Assembly: GCA_947175245.1 (NCBI GenBank)
Contig: CAMWLW010000003.1
Span: 1-64,000 of the forward strand
From: an uncultured Bacteroidales bacterium
Lineage (GTDB): Bacteria; Bacteroidota; Bacteroidia; Bacteroidales; Muribaculaceae
Reading direction: 5' to 3'
DNA: 64,000 nt
Shown: positions 3,524 to 11,633 of the stretch, in pieces
Layout: every line of letters starts with the position of its first letter
Numbering within the stretch: position 1 is the first letter of the stretch
Translations under genes and position numbers: made by a program
The notes under the pieces: model-generated
Told to the model about the DNA's origin: nothing
Databases searched by the model: none
Seen by the model: the letters and a program-made list of their open reading frames with translations, nothing else

Positions 3524-3531
3524 TAACTTTG
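3524..3531 (+). promoter_or_regulatory. Bacteroidetes-type -7 box TAACTTTG upstream of capsid-like operon
   Basis: Exact TAnnTTTG match, about 50 bp upstream of the first ORF. Confidence 0.55.
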
Positions 3532-3581
3532 CAATGTCGAATGACAATGACGTCACTAAGTTTAATCTAATCATATTGCCT

Positions 3582-3821
3582 ATGGAACAAACACAAGAAA
3601 TCAACACTCAAACTGAACAGACTGAACCGAAAATCGTGCAGGGCTCTCACGAGCCTGACACTCAGATGCCTGACATTGACAGGCTCATTGCCGAGGCTGA
3701 GGAGCGCGGCTATCGTCGCGGCCGTGAGGAGGCCGGGCAGGTGGAACCGGCTGAACAGGAGCCGGCAGACGAACCCGAGATACTGATTCTGGCGCATCGG
3801 CGTCGCAGTATTTGGGACTGA
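3582..3821 (+). CDS. Small acidic, charged protein preceding capsid gene (scaffold-like position; function unknown)
   Basis: MEQTQEINTQTEQTEPKIVQGSHEPDTQMPDIDRLIAEAEERGYRRGREEAGQ...; same strand, upstream of capsid ORF. Confidence 0.55.
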   Translation: MEQTQEINTQTEQTEPKIVQGSHEPDTQMPDIDRLIAEAEERGYRRGREEAGQVEPAEQEPADEPEILILAHRRRSIWD

Positions 3822-3889
3822 AACAAATCTTGCCTTAAATGACCATGAAAAACACAATCAATCTATTAATCAATTAAATTACATTATCT

Positions 3890-5086
3890 ATGAAAAACAT
3901 TGTAACTACCGATGTGGTAAACCAGGCTGCGCCCGAGCTGCTGCGCAGTGAGATTGACAGCCGAATTGTTAAAATCCGCCCGATGGCAACGCCTATCGAC
4001 CAGATTTCGCGTCACGCCAACACGCGCCGTGCGGGCAGTATGGTGGTTGAGTATTATGCTGTCGACAGCAAGCCTTTTGTGGCTACGCTGCGGGCCGACA
4101 TCGTGGGCAAGACCGAGACTGACCTCAATAAAAAGGTCAAGATGGCGCTGTCGGTCGAAGACACGAAGATGTTTGCTGTCAGTGAGACTGTCCTGCTGGC
4201 CAATGTTGTCAATAGTGCGGGCCGTCCCGTGACGGGTTACATCTCGGAAAAGACCGAGACGATGCTCAAGGGCTATTTCACGTGTACCGACAAGAACGGA
4301 TTCTCATCGATTCCTGAGATCAGCAAGGGTACCAAAATTGTGCGCATGGGTCGCGCGGCCGGTGAGCTCGACATCCAGACCGAACAGTTCCAGGCGCTGC
4401 CGCGCAAGGACAGTAACTTTTGCCAGATTTTCAAGACTCAGATCGAGCAGAGTACCCTGGTGACGCTGTCAAACAAGGAGGTGGGGTGGACTTTGAGCGA
4501 CCAGGAGGAGGCTGCGATCATTGACATGAGGCAGTGTATGGAGCGCAATTTCATGTTCGGCAACAAGTTGCGCCTTGACTTTGACGACGAGGATACGGTG
4601 ATGCTCACGGGCGGTATATGGAATCAGGCCGGTAAGGAGATGTCGTATATGATGGGTGAGCTTACTGACGAGAAGATGGTGTCGATATGCCGCGAGGCGT
4701 TCACGGGCTCGAACGGGTCGTCGCGCAAGCTGCTGATAGGCGGCAGCGGGTTTATCGAGGCGATGCACGGGCTGGGCGCGGCACGCACGCTGTCGGCGGC
4801 CGACAAGATGACGCGCTGGGGCCTTGATTTCACGACCTACGTCTCGAAATTCGGCACGCTCTACGTGCTTCTGAGCGAGACTTTCGACCAGTGTGGCCAC
4901 GCTAATGACGCCATGATTATCGACCCTGAGTATCTGACCAAGTACAGTCACATACCGTTCAAGACCGAGAAGCTGAACCTGCGAGCCGGCGGTGTACGCA
5001 ACACCGATGCCATAGTCATCACCGAGGCGTCGTGTCTGGTTCTGCGCTATCCCGATGCTCACATGCGTATCATCGCTAGCGAGTGA
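3890..5086 (+). CDS. Phage major capsid-like protein (DUF5309 / SU10-like)
   Basis: NFCQIFKTQIEQSTLVTLSNKEVGWTLSDQEEAAIIDMRQCMERNFMFGNKLR and the downstream pattern resemble DUF5309/SU10 capsid proteins. Confidence 0.65.
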   Translation: MKNIVTTDVVNQAAPELLRSEIDSRIVKIRPMATPIDQISRHANTRRAGSMVVEYYAVDSKPFVATLRADIVGKTETDLNKKVKMALSVEDTKMFAVSETVLLANVVNSAGRPVTGYISEKTETMLKGYFTCTDKNGFSSIPEISKGTKIVRMGRAAGELDIQTEQFQALPRKDSNFCQIFKTQIEQSTLVTLSNKEVGWTLSDQEEAAIIDMRQCMERNFMFGNKLRLDFDDEDTVMLTGGIWNQAGKEMSYMMGELTDEKMVSICREAFTGSNGSSRKLLIGGSGFIEAMHGLGAARTLSAADKMTRWGLDFTTYVSKFGTLYVLLSETFDQCGHANDAMIIDPEYLTKYSHIPFKTEKLNLRAGGVRNTDAIVITEASCLVLRYPDAHMRIIASE

Positions 5087-5090
5087 CGTC

Positions 5091-5624
5091 ATGGAGTACA
5101 CGCTTAATGAACTGATAGCTGAGTGGAAGATGCGCAAGGGTCTCGTACCCTTGCGTGTCGACGCTGCGGTCACGCGCCATGACGCGTTTGAGATTGACGA
5201 GTACGCGGCGCGGGTCATAAGGGAGTGGTATGAGGAGCTGCTCGACACGGCCGATGTGTCGCTGCTAGATGTCGAGGATATCACCGAGCGTGTAGACATC
5301 GAGGATTTCAGCGACGGTGTGGCTGTGATGAGGCTTCCCGACGGTTGCCGCCGGCTGGTGGAGGTGACGATGGAGCAGTGGCGCTGCCCGGCAACGATTG
5401 TCACCGACCCTGACTCGGAGCTCGCGCTGAGACAGCGCTCGGTGTTCGGGCGCGGGGGCGCATGCTGTCCGGTTGCTGTCACCGAGGGGGCGGGCAGGGT
5501 GAGGCTGTACAGTTTCAGGGGTGCCGTGACGCCGTCGCCGGTGAGGGTGCTGGGTGTCATGAGTCAGCCCGAGGGGGTGATACGCTGCTCGCCGAGGGCG
5601 CTGTCGTTGCTGTTCAATTCTTAA
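5091..5624 (+). CDS. Unknown protein between capsid and portal (possible head-connector-like)
   Basis: Starts 4 bp after the capsid stop; start set at MEYTLNELIAEWKMRK. No family recognised; role inferred from position. Confidence 0.5.
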   Translation: MEYTLNELIAEWKMRKGLVPLRVDAAVTRHDAFEIDEYAARVIREWYEELLDTADVSLLDVEDITERVDIEDFSDGVAVMRLPDGCRRLVEVTMEQWRCPATIVTDPDSELALRQRSVFGRGGACCPVAVTEGAGRVRLYSFRGAVTPSPVRVLGVMSQPEGVIRCSPRALSLLFNS

Positions 5625-5637
5625 ATACTGATTTACT

Positions 5638-6951
5638 ATGGAAAATGCAAAAGATATTCTTGACGCCGCCTGCAGGGCATGGTCGGGGTGGGCCTCGGTC
5701 AGGACACGGCGTGACAAGTACAAACGGTTTACGTATGGCGACCAGTGGAGCTACATGGTGAGTGACGGTGACCGTTACATGACGGCGGCCGAGCGTGCCG
5801 TGGCTCACGGCCGACGCCCGATGACCAACAATATGCTGAGGCGGCTTGTCAAGTCGGTCATAGGACGTTACCGCTACCGGCGTCAGGACGGCGAACAGCT
5901 CACGGGCGAGGCTGCCCGGGTGTACGCGTTCAACAATCTTGACGAGATTGACTGCCGGTCGCTCGAGGAGTTCCTGATATCGGGGTGTACGATCCAGAGG
6001 GTGATACGCGAGCGCCGGCTGATGGGTCACGAACTGTGGGTCGACATGGTGTGCCCCGACCGATTCTTTGTCAACCCTATACGTGACCCGCGGGGATGGG
6101 ATGCCGAGCTGGTGGGGATGCTTCATGACTGGAGCCTGACTGAGACGGTGATACGCCTCGCCGGCGATGACCCCGGGCGCGCTGCCGCCATAAGGCAGAT
6201 ATATGGCAGCATGTGCAGCAACCCTGTGTTGGGCGACTGGTGTGCGGGGTCAGACCATATTGACTCGTTCCTGTCGGCGCCGCCGGGCCGCTGCCGTGTA
6301 ATCGAGGTGTGGACGCTCGAGGCTGTAACCCGCAGGCGTCCCAGGCGCAAGACGGCCGGCGCCGGCGCCACGGCCTGTGACGTGTCGACCATGTGGCGCT
6401 GCCGGTGGCTCGCTCCCGACGGCACGGTGCTGGCCTCGCACGTGTCGCGGTCGCCCGACGGGATGCACCCGTTCAAGTTCCGTTTCTACCCTATGATCGA
6501 CGGTGAGGTTCACTCGCTGGTGGAGGATGTCATAGACCAGCAGATTTACATCAATGAGCTCATATCGCTCATTGACCACGTGGTGAGCTGCGCGGCCAAG
6601 GGTGTGCTGGTCTTTCCGGTCGAGGAGATGGCGCCGGGCATGACGCTCGAGAAGGTGACGGAGAAATGGAGCTCGCCCGATGCCGTCATTCCGATTAGAC
6701 GCGGCATCTCAAAGCCCGAGCAGATTACCGCGTCGGGCGGCTCTCTCGCGGCTAAGGAACTGCTGGAGATTCAGATGCAGATGTTTGAGGATGTGTCGGG
6801 CGTGACAAATGTGCTGATGGGGCGCACGGCGTCGGGCCGTATAGGCGTCGAGCAGTATGAGAGCCAGGTGCGCAACGCTCTCATTGCCATCGCCGACATT
6901 CTCGACACGTTCGGCAACTTCATCGCGGCGCGCAACAGTGCGCTGGTGTAA
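5638..6951 (+). CDS. Phage portal-like protein, short (437 aa)
   Basis: RRDKYKRFTYGDQW..., MTNNMLRRLVKSVIGRYRYR..., MTLEKVTEKWSSPDAVIPI...VSGVTNVLMGRTASGRIGVEQYESQV resemble Bacteroides-phage portal proteins. Confidence 0.65.
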   Translation: MENAKDILDAACRAWSGWASVRTRRDKYKRFTYGDQWSYMVSDGDRYMTAAERAVAHGRRPMTNNMLRRLVKSVIGRYRYRRQDGEQLTGEAARVYAFNNLDEIDCRSLEEFLISGCTIQRVIRERRLMGHELWVDMVCPDRFFVNPIRDPRGWDAELVGMLHDWSLTETVIRLAGDDPGRAAAIRQIYGSMCSNPVLGDWCAGSDHIDSFLSAPPGRCRVIEVWTLEAVTRRRPRRKTAGAGATACDVSTMWRCRWLAPDGTVLASHVSRSPDGMHPFKFRFYPMIDGEVHSLVEDVIDQQIYINELISLIDHVVSCAAKGVLVFPVEEMAPGMTLEKVTEKWSSPDAVIPIRRGISKPEQITASGGSLAAKELLEIQMQMFEDVSGVTNVLMGRTASGRIGVEQYESQVRNALIAIADILDTFGNFIAARNSALV

Positions 6952-6958
6952 AACGAAG

Positions 6959-6995
6959 AGGAGGGTTGTACCATACTTGACGGTACAACCCTCCT
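6959..6995. terminator. Bidirectional hairpin terminator
   Basis: Perfect 14-bp inverted repeat aggagggttgtacc / ggtacaaccctcct with 9-nt loop between convergent genes. Confidence 0.8.
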
Positions 6996-7019: not shown

Positions 7020-10000
7020 TCAGCGTACGGCGACCTTGGCTACCACATTGCCACACTTGACGATGTAGATGCCTGTCGAGACGTTGACTGTGATGTCGTC
7101 GCCTGTGGTCTCACCGGCGGCAATCACTATGCCCGAGGTTGCAGCCACGGTGTAAGCGTTGCCGGCTGCGAAGCCCTTGAGCACGATTGTCTTGCCGTCG
7201 ACAACGATGGCCGCGCGGCCGTCGGCGGTAACATTGTCGATGCCCGACTCGTCATCGTCGATCCAGATGACGTTAGAGCGGTCAGACTCGACGGTCTCGC
7301 CGTTGACGGTGCCTACCGACATGACGTAGTAGCGTACGGGTACCGAGGTGTCGACGCCCTTGTCGGTGAAGCCGGGGGCGGTGAGCATGTCAGAGGCGGC
7401 CTCGCCGTCGCGATACACGTTGTAGCCGTCGAGGGTCACGGCGGGCTGTGCGGCAGTATAGGCGATGTCGTCGATCATGAAGCCGAATGCTGCCTCGGGA
7501 TCGTCGGTGACATGGTGCAGGGCGAAGTACTTGGCGTTGGCGGGCAGGGTGAACTCAAACTTGGTCCAGCCGGTCTCGTCGGGGCATACATAGCCGCCGT
7601 CAAGCATCTGCTTGAAGTCGGCGGGGTCGTTGCCGGTGGTCGAGTACATCACGAGAACGGTCTCGGGGTATTCGTCTGAGAAGATGTTCATCCAGAACGA
7701 CATCGTGCTGCCGGGTACGACCTCGGGCGAGATCAGCCAGTCGTCTGACTCTACCTTGCTGGCCGAGGTGCAGAGCAGGTATTGTGTGCCGGTGTGGGCT
7801 GCGAACAGCGGGCTGTCGGTGATCGAGGCGTCAAATACCTGGAAGGCCTTGGCCGAGCCCTTGCCGGGGTATGAAACCTCTGAGATGCCCCATTCCTTAC
7901 CCTCGTCGAGGTCTATGTTCCTGAAGCCTTTGAGGGTGGCGCCCATCTCCCAGGCGTCGATGGCCTCGAAACTCTCGGTGAACTTGGGTTCGGTCCAGCT
8001 CAGTGTCACGTCCGAGCCGTTGAGGCTGTATGAGAGGTCGGTGACAACGGGGATGGGGGCATTGAGCACCACCACCTCTTTCTCGACTTTGGATGTCGAC
8101 TCTGAGGGCTGACCCTCGAGGTTGAAGGTCACGAGCATGTCGCCCTTGTCGGCTGCCTTGGGTGTCACGTCAAAGCTGAGGGTGACTTTCTTGCCGGCAG
8201 CGATGGTGGCGGGAGCGTTCGAGTCCTTGAGGTCGGCTACGGTACCGTTGTTGCCGGTGGCCTTGAACGTGTACTGGGGCATGGGCTGTGTGGCGGTGCC
8301 GGCGTTCTCGATCTCGACGCTGTAGGTGAGGGTCTCACCGACAGCGCCGCGGCCGGGGCCGCTGAACGACGATATGGTCATCATGTCGTCGGGATAGTTG
8401 GCTACCGAGTAAGAGTCGAGCATGAAACATTCAGAGTAGCCGGTGATCTTGACGCGGATGGTGATCTGTACCCAGGGCTGGTTCTGGCACATGGCCGGGA
8501 GCGATACGAGCTTGTTCTCCCACGGCCCGCGGCCCGACTCGGGGGCGAACTGTGCCACGGGCTCCATCTCGAGAGCGGGCGATGTGGCGTAGACGGTGAC
8601 GAGTGAGGGAGCGAGGTTGCCGGTGTAGAGGTCGAGGTTGAGTTTCACGTTGTTCATGCCGGTGGTCGAGAAGCGCGGCAGCAGGATCTGTGACTCACCG
8701 TCCCACATGCAGGCCAGAGCGTTGGCGGTAGAGTTGGCGGCGTCCTCGTCCATATCGCGCGGGTCGACAAATCCCCATGTCGACTGCAGGTAAGAGAGGT
8801 GTTCGATCGAGAGGGGCTCCTTGAAGTCGACAGCCTGGCCGCTGGTGGGGAAGGTCTCAACCAGGGGCAGTGTATAGAGCTTGCCGAGGTGGATCATGAA
8901 CGAGTTCATCTCCTCACAGGTGCCGACGGCGTTCTTAGACACGACGCCGAACATGAACATATCCTGCTTCGAGGCGTCGGGAACGGTGAACTCCCACGTG
9001 CGGTTCTTGCCGATGTCGGCGACGGGACGCCACTCGTCGTTGATGCGGCGGTAGATGATGACGTCGGTGAGGTCGGGACCGGTGAACTCGCCGTTCGCGT
9101 TGTAGTCGTCGAGGTCAATCTCGAGGGAGAGCTTCATGTTGTCGTCTGACACGCTCGTGAACACATAGGGTGTTGCCGGACGGTAGATGCCGCAGTAAAC
9201 GGTGGTCTCGGCTATCTGGCCCTGACCCTTGTCGCTCGATGTGGTGACGCGTATGATGTTTGAACCCTGGATGGCGGGAACTTTAACCGACACGGTCTCG
9301 CCGGGCTTGCCTGTCACTGATGCGCTGCCGGCCTCAGACACGGCCTCGGCTGTGATGACGGTGGCGGCATCGAGCGCGGTGCCCGAGATCGAGAGTGTGG
9401 GCATCTTGAATGTGAGCGTGGCTGCGAGTTCTCCGCGAGCGCCGGCTACGGCTGTGACGTCGGTGACGGCAGCCGGGCTGTCGCTCGACGAGTTGGCCAC
9501 CTCGACCATGAAGTTGCGGGCATACAGGCGGTAGTTGCCTAATGGCGATATGTAGTGGATACCGATGTACCACTCACCGGCTTCGGGAACCTGGAAGATG
9601 GTCTCAGAGAGCTCGAAAGCGGGGTTCTTGTAGACGGTCGAGGCCTCGCGTATGATTGTGGGGCGCGAGCCGTTGGGGCGCTGGCACAGCGCTACCTCAT
9701 AGATCTCGTCGGCGGTGAAGAAGTGGTAGCCTGTCCACACCTCCATCGTGAAGCGGTAGTGTGCGTCCTTGTCGGTGAAGTTGATGGCGGGCAGGAAGAG
9801 CCACTCGTTGCCGGTGTCGCCTGTTGAGCTTGACGTGGGGTAGAGGCAGTAGAAGCCGCCGGTGTGCTCCGACTGGTCGTCATAGCGCCAGCCGCGCATC
9901 GACTCGTTGTTCAGTATGTCCTTGACGGGGGTAAACATCGATATCACCTCGGGGTCGAGGTCTTTCTCGCCCTCTTCGGGGCCGAGGTAGACGGGGAGCG

Positions 10001-11633
10001 AGAGGGCGCCGTCGACATAGAGCTTGCCCGAGACGCCGGGTGCCGATGTCTTGCCGTCGCAGATGGCATAAACCTCGGCGCGGTGAGCTACCACGCCTGT
10101 GGGCGGGATGGTGATGTCGAGTGTCGTGGCCTTGACGGGCTCGGGTGTCATGAGCACCTTGTCGACATATACATTATAGGTGACGTTGGCAGCGTCGATG
10201 GCACCGCCGTTGGCGCCCTCGGTCACTGCATCCCAGCTCACGCGGGTCTCGGTGAACACTACGTTGGCCGGAGCCTTGGGCACGTCGTTACCCAGGGCGC
10301 GGTCAAACAGCAGGGCCGAGCCGAGCACTTTGCCGTCGTCTGACAGCACGTAGGGTACTACCGAGAAGTGGTGCAGCCCCTCGTCGGTGTTGACCGGAAT
10401 GGTGACGTCTGCGCCGGCATTGCCGCTGTATGAGCCGCTGACGGCGTTGCCGTCAACCGTCACTTCGAGATAGACCTTGCCGGTGATGGCTTTGCCGTTC
10501 TCGAGCTGTGAGGGCAGGGTTACAACGAAGTTGCCCTGTGTGGCGCCGGCCGCTACATTCCAGCTCTTGAGCGCGGGAGCCTTGGGGCCGTTGGCATTGA
10601 CGTAGGCGTCCTTGACATAGAGCATCGCATATTGAGGGCCGTTGGGCAACTTGCCCAGGTAGGTGTAGTTGCCGGTTGTGGGCATCACAAACAGGCCGGT
10701 GAACTCGCCGTCGGCGTCGGTGTACACGTCAACGGGCATGATGAAGCCGTTGTCTTTGGGGCTGTAGATCATGCACTGGGTGTATTTGTCGATCTCGTAG
10801 GGGAGAGTGTTGGTCTGGTTGAAGCGCTTGGCTTTGCTGTCATATTTCTTGAGCAGTCCCGACTCATCGAACATGTAGAGCGAGTTGTCGGCCGGGTTCC
10901 AGCCCAGGTTGAGCCAGTCGCCGGGCATGTTGACACCTAAGTTGGTGAACTGACCGCTCTTGGGGTTGAACTTCTGGAGCAGGTATGAGGTGCCTGTTGC
11001 ATTGGCAGTGATTACATACGCAACGTCCTCGGCGCTGTCATAGGCGGCAGCATACACCACTTCTTCGAGCGAGTCGAAGATTGACGCTGTAACCTGGCTC
11101 GTCACGGTGCCGTCGCTGAGGTTCTGGATATAATAACCGGCGTCAGTTACATAGTATTCGTTGTCATAAACCTTTCCGTAGACATAGAATGAGTACACCT
11201 GGTCGCCGCGCACGAAGCCGGTCGAGGGCGAGAACTGGGTGCTGTGTTCCCACACGAAGCTGATTGATAGGTCGGCGTTCAGTGTGCCCCAGCCTGTGGT
11301 GCCCACAGAGCCGTTGTAGGTGCAGTAGCCCTGCAGGCCGGTTGCCTTAGGAGCGGCCTTGGCGGGTACGGGATTGTAATAGTTGGCTGTGAATGTACGG
11401 GGAGCCTTGGTGACGGCCTGGAGTTCGGGGAAGATGTTGCTGGTTTTTTGTGAGGCCTCGTTTGCGCGGGTGCGGGGCAGCATGTGGGGGGCGATTTTCA
11501 CACAAGGCTGCTCGACAGTCTTGGCGAACGCCCGCTCGGGGGCATTGCCCTCGCGCTGTATCTGAGCCGGTGCTGTCAAACAGCAGGCAAGCATAAGCGC
11601 ACTGAAGCCTAAAGCTTTAAGAGATTTTTTCAT
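7020..11633 (-). CDS. Large secreted multidomain adhesin-like protein (choice-of-anchor J/MAM-like domains, FN3-like repeats) with T9SS-type C-terminus
   Basis: 1537 aa; signal peptide; C-term STGIYIVKCGNVVAKVAVR typical of T9SS sorting-like ends. Confidence 0.75.
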   Translation of the reverse strand: MKKSLKALGFSALMLACCLTAPAQIQREGNAPERAFAKTVEQPCVKIAPHMLPRTRANEASQKTSNIFPELQAVTKAPRTFTANYYNPVPAKAAPKATGLQGYCTYNGSVGTTGWGTLNADLSISFVWEHSTQFSPSTGFVRGDQVYSFYVYGKVYDNEYYVTDAGYYIQNLSDGTVTSQVTASIFDSLEEVVYAAAYDSAEDVAYVITANATGTSYLLQKFNPKSGQFTNLGVNMPGDWLNLGWNPADNSLYMFDESGLLKKYDSKAKRFNQTNTLPYEIDKYTQCMIYSPKDNGFIMPVDVYTDADGEFTGLFVMPTTGNYTYLGKLPNGPQYAMLYVKDAYVNANGPKAPALKSWNVAAGATQGNFVVTLPSQLENGKAITGKVYLEVTVDGNAVSGSYSGNAGADVTIPVNTDEGLHHFSVVPYVLSDDGKVLGSALLFDRALGNDVPKAPANVVFTETRVSWDAVTEGANGGAIDAANVTYNVYVDKVLMTPEPVKATTLDITIPPTGVVAHRAEVYAICDGKTSAPGVSGKLYVDGALSLPVYLGPEEGEKDLDPEVISMFTPVKDILNNESMRGWRYDDQSEHTGGFYCLYPTSSSTGDTGNEWLFLPAINFTDKDAHYRFTMEVWTGYHFFTADEIYEVALCQRPNGSRPTIIREASTVYKNPAFELSETIFQVPEAGEWYIGIHYISPLGNYRLYARNFMVEVANSSSDSPAAVTDVTAVAGARGELAATLTFKMPTLSISGTALDAATVITAEAVSEAGSASVTGKPGETVSVKVPAIQGSNIIRVTTSSDKGQGQIAETTVYCGIYRPATPYVFTSVSDDNMKLSLEIDLDDYNANGEFTGPDLTDVIIYRRINDEWRPVADIGKNRTWEFTVPDASKQDMFMFGVVSKNAVGTCEEMNSFMIHLGKLYTLPLVETFPTSGQAVDFKEPLSIEHLSYLQSTWGFVDPRDMDEDAANSTANALACMWDGESQILLPRFSTTGMNNVKLNLDLYTGNLAPSLVTVYATSPALEMEPVAQFAPESGRGPWENKLVSLPAMCQNQPWVQITIRVKITGYSECFMLDSYSVANYPDDMMTISSFSGPGRGAVGETLTYSVEIENAGTATQPMPQYTFKATGNNGTVADLKDSNAPATIAAGKKVTLSFDVTPKAADKGDMLVTFNLEGQPSESTSKVEKEVVVLNAPIPVVTDLSYSLNGSDVTLSWTEPKFTESFEAIDAWEMGATLKGFRNIDLDEGKEWGISEVSYPGKGSAKAFQVFDASITDSPLFAAHTGTQYLLCTSASKVESDDWLISPEVVPGSTMSFWMNIFSDEYPETVLVMYSTTGNDPADFKQMLDGGYVCPDETGWTKFEFTLPANAKYFALHHVTDDPEAAFGFMIDDIAYTAAQPAVTLDGYNVYRDGEAASDMLTAPGFTDKGVDTSVPVRYYVMSVGTVNGETVESDRSNVIWIDDDESGIDNVTADGRAAIVVDGKTIVLKGFAAGNAYTVAATSGIVIAAGETTGDDITVNVSTGIYIVKCGNVVAKVAVR

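Follow-up and report, generated by a model that had tools for sequence, protein, structure and literature searches.

We propose that a block of four phage-related genes in an uncultured member of the Muribaculaceae (order Bacteroidales) belongs to a set of at least three loci encoding a domesticated, vertically inherited, short-tailed phage-like particle that is most likely a gene transfer agent (GTA), a reading to which we assign a probability of about 70%. The block lies near the start of the window, i.e., the whole 64,000-nucleotide stretch of contig CAMWLW010000003.1 (assembly GCA_947175245.1) that was analyzed. Judged from its genes, such a particle would likely package random host DNA and deliver it. 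We further think it fairly probable that this is a family-wide GTA that evolved independently in the Bacteroidota from an SU10-like phage, that is shared by most Muribaculaceae and six further families, and whose history includes stages of dispersal and the change from a full-length to a shortened portal and scaffold. In the mouse gut, Muribaculaceae belong to the most abundant bacteria, and a near-universal GTA-like system in this family, if true, would offer a tangible and testable path by which gut bacteria exchange genes, one that is usable in cultured strains. The series of families displays a prophage turning into a scattered cellular system. Gene-neighborhood searches miss such systems because each single locus looks incomplete.

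The block consists of four intact open reading frames on the plus strand, which start behind a promoter box and end in a strong hairpin, as an earlier note on this DNA had described. The box, TAACTTTG (3524–3531, plus strand), conforms in sequence to the Bacteroidota-type −7 promoter element (TAnnTTTG). The first gene, g1 (3582–3821), encodes a shortened scaffold-like protein of 79 aa (profile 2e-17) that is homologous to the C-terminal part of gp10 of the Bacteroides phage BS-TP4, which matches the same profile at 3e-24; a longer call from 3477 begins 5′ of the promoter box, and the start at 3582 was used instead. The 398-aa product of g2 (3890–5086) is an SU10-type major capsid protein of the HK97 lineage, with SU10_MCP (1.6e-47) as its only Pfam match and a profile match to the phage VP1 capsid in PDB entry 9in6 (3e-12). 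It is followed by g3 (5091–5624; 177 aa), which profile search and alignment with BS-TP4 gp13 identify as a head-tail adaptor-like protein, homologous to gp13 with a shorter C-terminus, and by g4 (5638–6951; 437 aa), a P22-type portal (Pfam P22_portal 1e-14) that matches the PHROG 156 portal (5e-31) over profile positions 12–443 of 681 only and is missing the C-terminal ~170 residues. The SU10-like capsid and the short portal named in the earlier note are what the profiles recover. The 15-bp hairpin (6959–6995, or 6960–6994 by narrower bounds; −27.1 kcal/mol, z −7.2) lies between convergent genes, occurs once in the window and not at all in shuffled sequences, and is likely a bidirectional terminator.

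On the left, the block is flanked by a GH43 gene (minus strand, up to 3366) and on the right by the gene for a 1537-aa cleaved-adhesin/CARDB protein (minus strand, 7020–11633), and no further phage gene was found between these two. ARAGORN detected no tRNA in the window, and no integrase, replication or lysis genes were recognized adjoining the operon there. The GC content of the operon (3582–6951) is 58% vs 52% for the window, and the GC3 of g2–g4 is 0.74–0.78 vs a median of 0.63 for long open reading frames.

The block had been called an orphan, which is accurate within the window, where it stands without any other phage gene, but not for the genome, in which the gene set is spread over three loci: scaffold, capsid, adaptor and portal on the contig of the window (C3), a nozzle gene and the large terminase subunit gene (TerL) at C6:19046–23454, and two further genes, g5 and g6, at C109:6744–7648. 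A Pfam Terminase_6C search of the same genome gave no TerL match, and the conclusion that a terminase is absent was rejected as a sensitivity artefact, since a profile derived from BS-TP4 TerL and its relatives finds a single TerL in the genome (C6:21565–23370). Its Walker A motif, Walker B-like SE motif and nuclease D/E/DD residues are kept in nearly all copies. The 823-aa nozzle gene immediately upstream of TerL is homologous to phage gp26 (profile 1.6e-35), and its predicted structure (pLDDT 86) gives matches to the tail nozzle of SU10 (7z47, E 2e-13), P22 gp10 and Sf6 gp8. The g5/g6 locus adjoins truA. The g5 protein is homologous to phage gp9, whose gene precedes TerL in the phage on the same strand, and from this gene position g5 is probably the small terminase subunit; its AlphaFold model (pLDDT 94.8) has two similar three-helix halves, and no match stands out in a comparison with PDB folds. 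PDB sequence searches with the nozzle, g3 and g5 returned nothing useful. At each of the three loci, a TAnnTTTG box precedes the first gene by 54–116 bases. No linked phage integrase, replication or lysis genes were recognized at the C6 locus; a xerC-like tyrosine recombinase gene ~4 kb from TerL was taken as a core gene.

Host-type capsid genes were present in 53 of 59 Muribaculaceae genomes, portals in 52 and TerL in 51, nearly always as a single copy, and g5 was found in 33 of the 37 genomes tested. Among cultured isolates of the family, the records of Isolate-002 NCI and Isolate-110 HZI contain the capsid gene. Capsid, portal and TerL are missing from both genomes of genus g26 (g5 also from the one tested), G003 has neither capsid nor portal, and in G055 (L090, L180) TerL contains an in-frame TAG and its matched part stops before the nuclease domain. 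As these cases (G003, G055, g26) indicate, the gene set is dispensable. G055 keeps the capsid and a long-branched portal, and its genus-mate G036 has prophage-type copies only; on the basis of these two genomes, their genus (g30) looks to be still losing the system. An evenly spread sample of 392 genomes from the order gave host-type copies in six further families (f22, f28, f58, f65, f84 and f103), with just weaker, phage-like matches in the rest, and TerL was detected in all 14 genomes tested from the six families. A phylum-wide draw yielded no further host-type copy.

All host capsids of these seven families fall into a single clade (bootstrap 90, SH-aLRT 99), and the nearest SU10-like phages form a clade of their own (100/100). 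Among genera with at least two genomes, 10 of 11 are monophyletic for the capsid, 10 of 11 for the portal and 13 of 13 for TerL, and the TerL tree keeps the genus grouping although TerL is mostly at a separate locus; within the genus of the window, the branching of capsid and TerL is compatible. Pairwise distances correlate with those of rpoB for TerL (0.55; 0 of 2000 permutations as high) and for the portal (0.39; 1 of 2000), and only weakly and not significantly for the capsid (0.17; 183 of 2000 as high). Comparison across copies points to purifying selection, with pairwise dN/dS mostly at 0.08–0.2 (capsid ~0.08–0.13, portal 0.11–0.21, TerL 0.10–0.21, many of the dS values being saturated); values are higher for g1, the nozzle and g6, and those of rpoB are 0.02–0.04. 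Per residue, the host portal, TerL and g3 also contain less carbon than the homologous phage proteins (portal 4.96 vs 5.23, p 1e-7; the p-values for all three are optimistic because the rows are related), and a low-carbon amino-acid bias has been reported for alphaproteobacterial GTAs (PMC9765227). There is little doubt that the gene set is domesticated. The single clade, the purifying selection and the co-occurrence of the genes in Muribaculaceae bear out the suggestion of the earlier note that the block is phage-derived, domesticated and GTA-like and no random prophage scar, and they do not fit a block that occurs only in full prophages and decays elsewhere.

The related families differ from the Muribaculaceae in how far the genes have moved apart. 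When capsid and TerL of the six families are on one contig, they are 14–46 kb apart (G141, G282, G310, G344, G085), and some of these intervals hold host genes reading like asnS, lysS and rplU. These families have a full-length scaffold, a gp12 homologue and a fiber gene, and several of their genomes carry ejection-like genes beside TerL. In Muribaculaceae, the corresponding distance on single contigs is 103 kb (G017), 650 kb (G004) and 956 kb (G014); most genomes have two or more loci, the split ones two to four, and the flanks of the operon vary between genomes. Some Muribaculaceae contigs have a compact 9-kb cluster, for which L405 and L403 combined give the order nozzle-TerL-g1-g2-g3-g4-g5-g6: L405 and L406 cover (nozzle-)TerL-g1-g2-g3-g4(-g5), and L403 adds g6. 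Given these stages, from 14–46 kb to scattered, one ancient prophage ancestor is the simplest account. In five of the families (f58, f103, f84, f65 and f28), the scaffold-capsid cluster adjoins the same, divergently oriented host gene of ~546 aa, which reads like fumarate hydratase (L348, L352, L346, L356, L362, L085) and may mark the ancestral insertion site.

The portal and the scaffold became shorter within this series. All Muribaculaceae portals in the alignment share one end point, whereas the C-terminal ~170 residues common to phages are still present in the f22 and f28 portals of the host clade. Over many loci, the median portal length is 469 aa vs 678 aa in viral contigs (8 complete), and the median scaffold length 129 aa vs 263 aa. 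Because both proteins are short throughout the Muribaculaceae, the truncation is inherited and not decay, and the earlier term remnant does not apply if decay is meant by it. We infer that a shorter scaffold may give a smaller head. In 78 of 86 phage rows, the capsid of SU10-like Bacteroidales phages starts with a long, hydrophobic segment resembling a membrane helix, which is retained in 8 of 9 copies from related families and 39 of 81 from Muribaculaceae and is lost in the capsid of the window (compared in L091, L346, L264, L407 and others).

Among the closest known relatives are SU10-like temperate Bacteroides phages (BS-TP4, BF1-TP2, BKO1-TP3), which are short-tailed and have a homologous gene set. 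In BS-TP4, the block corresponds to gp10 (scaffold), gp11 (capsid), gp13 (adaptor) and gp4 (portal), and the other loci to gp7 (TerL), gp9 (g5) and gp26 (nozzle). This phage differs in that its portal and scaffold are full-length and that it has an integrase, replication genes, an endolysin and giant tail genes, all on one replicating genome, and capsids of its type are ~35% identical to host capsids. A capsid search of IMG/VR returned five contigs at 48–54% identity and all others at ≤36%. The contigs at 48–54% were considered as free phages, a reading that was rejected: three of them (L403, L405, L406) carry the Muribaculaceae-type gene set, the capsid tree places L403 and L405 inside genus g22, and an inverted duplication is present in L404. 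L407, which IMG/VR lists as a 27.5-kb ‘provirus’ of an isolate, falls in the host clade and has a compact layout, in which scaffold, capsid, gp12, g3 and fiber are divergent from a group of ejection-like genes, TerL and g5. The order also contains SU10-like prophages or prophage parts that have longer portals (L092 in G009, L095 in G034, L096 in G056, L093 in G036, L094 in G077), and G009, G034 and G056 carry host-type genes plus a prophage-type set. The portal of L093 has only 506 aa and yet groups with phages.

In the proposed mechanism, a procapsid of shortened scaffold and capsid would form on the portal with its trimmed C-terminus, TerL would fill it with host DNA, probably together with g5 as the small subunit, and adaptor and nozzle would close the particle as a short tail. 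The particles would then be released from a few lysing cells and carry DNA to relatives. Delivery is the weakest step, because no receptor-binding fiber, ejection protein or lysis gene was recognized in Muribaculaceae. The related families have a small ejection-like protein, which was not found in Muribaculaceae outside two genomes with SU10-like prophages, apart from one further weak match at chance level.

A particle without delivery would be something else, for example a phage-interference device, and a domesticated particle with such a non-transfer use is the first alternative to be weighed. The truncated portal, the short scaffold and the capsid would in that case poison the heads of SU10-like phages by co-assembly. 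The truncated parts do resemble dominant-negative ones, fiber and ejection genes were not found in Muribaculaceae, and SU10-like prophages are present in the same family. However, the catalytic TerL residues and a full-length nozzle, both needless for interference, are kept, host and phage capsids have diverged to the low identity given above, and three genomes hold host-type genes and SU10-like prophages together, so that we regard this use as unlikely. A protein nanocompartment, i.e., a capsid shell that stores an enzyme or metabolite, is very improbable: no part is better conserved than the capsid (dN/dS 0.08), but selection also maintains portal, TerL, nozzle and adaptor, at separate loci, and no constant cargo gene stands beside the operon, whose flanks vary. 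The earlier idea of a stand-alone capsid compartment fails in the same way, as the genome retains TerL, nozzle, g5 and g6 at other loci. An encapsulin was likewise rejected, given that SU10_MCP is the only Pfam match of g2, that portal, TerL and nozzle are kept and that the flanks vary.

The GTA-like reading also has to be set against the idea that an ordinary prophage, or what is left of it in decay, was acquired repeatedly. The gene content does come from a temperate SU10-like lineage such as that of BS-TP4, and copies are disrupted or absent in places (G055, G003, g26), yet one host clade, genus-level monophyly, low dN/dS, the spread of near-universal single-copy genes over hundreds of kb and loci at which no phage integrase or phage replication gene was seen refute it as a general account and leave it with hardly any credit. 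A random prophage scar was rejected on distribution, the single host clade and dN/dS, and an intact temperate prophage because linked integrase, replication and lysis genes were not recognized beside the operon in the window or at the C6 locus. Least credible is a capsid-encoding satellite or island that parasitizes other phages, as the earlier note had also suggested: the compact 9-kb cluster (L403, L405, L406) is of satellite-like size, but no integrase or replication gene was seen beside it, L403 and L405 nest within a host genus, the loci examined showed the operon linked neither to an integrase nor to a mobile unit, no circularized or excised form with an integrase was seen, and the genes, being unlinked in most genomes, cannot move as one unit.

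The comparison with known GTAs follows the six defining features taken from PMC9662315 (RcGTA, BaGTA, BhGTA/VSH-1). Three were found here: particle proteins derived from a tailed phage (capsid, portal, TerL, nozzle fold and homologues of scaffold, adaptor and g5), full endogenization, often at several loci (three in this genome, at least two in most Muribaculaceae), and vertical inheritance with host co-diversification (one clade, genus monophyly and the TerL and portal correlations with rpoB, that of the capsid being weak). With three of six, we name the system GTA-like and not GTA. On a fourth feature, a head too small for the whole gene set, capsid and TerL that are 103, 650 and 956 kb apart would not fit together into a phage-sized head, but compact 9-kb clusters exist on some contigs. 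For the packaging of mostly random host DNA, the conserved TerL residues are indirect support, and for its delivery to other cells, no fiber or ejection gene was found in Muribaculaceae.

We found no earlier description of a GTA from Muribaculaceae or other Bacteroidota in the open-access literature that was searched, and GTAs with known genes are formally classified in three independent groups only (PMC9662315). In human gut communities, particles filled with host DNA exist in capsid-packaged form, with GTA activity assigned to Oscillospiraceae and Ruminococcaceae and lateral transduction to Bacteroides, and the main text of that study does not mention Muribaculaceae (‘Muribacul’; PMC12946183). 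Like encapsulins, the present system has an HK97-lineage shell protein retained by the cell, but unlike them it keeps portal, terminase and nozzle and has no conserved cargo gene. From known GTAs this candidate differs in its independent origin in the Bacteroidota from SU10/P22-like short-tailed phages, in the truncated scaffold and C-terminally truncated portal of the Muribaculaceae, and in the fiber, ejection and lysis genes that were not recognized there. It resembles them in combining tailed-phage structural and packaging genes at several endogenized loci with vertical inheritance and grouping by genus (PMC9662315), and it shares a single-copy terL away from the capsid locus with the Brachyspira GTA and low-carbon amino-acid use with the alphaproteobacterial GTAs.
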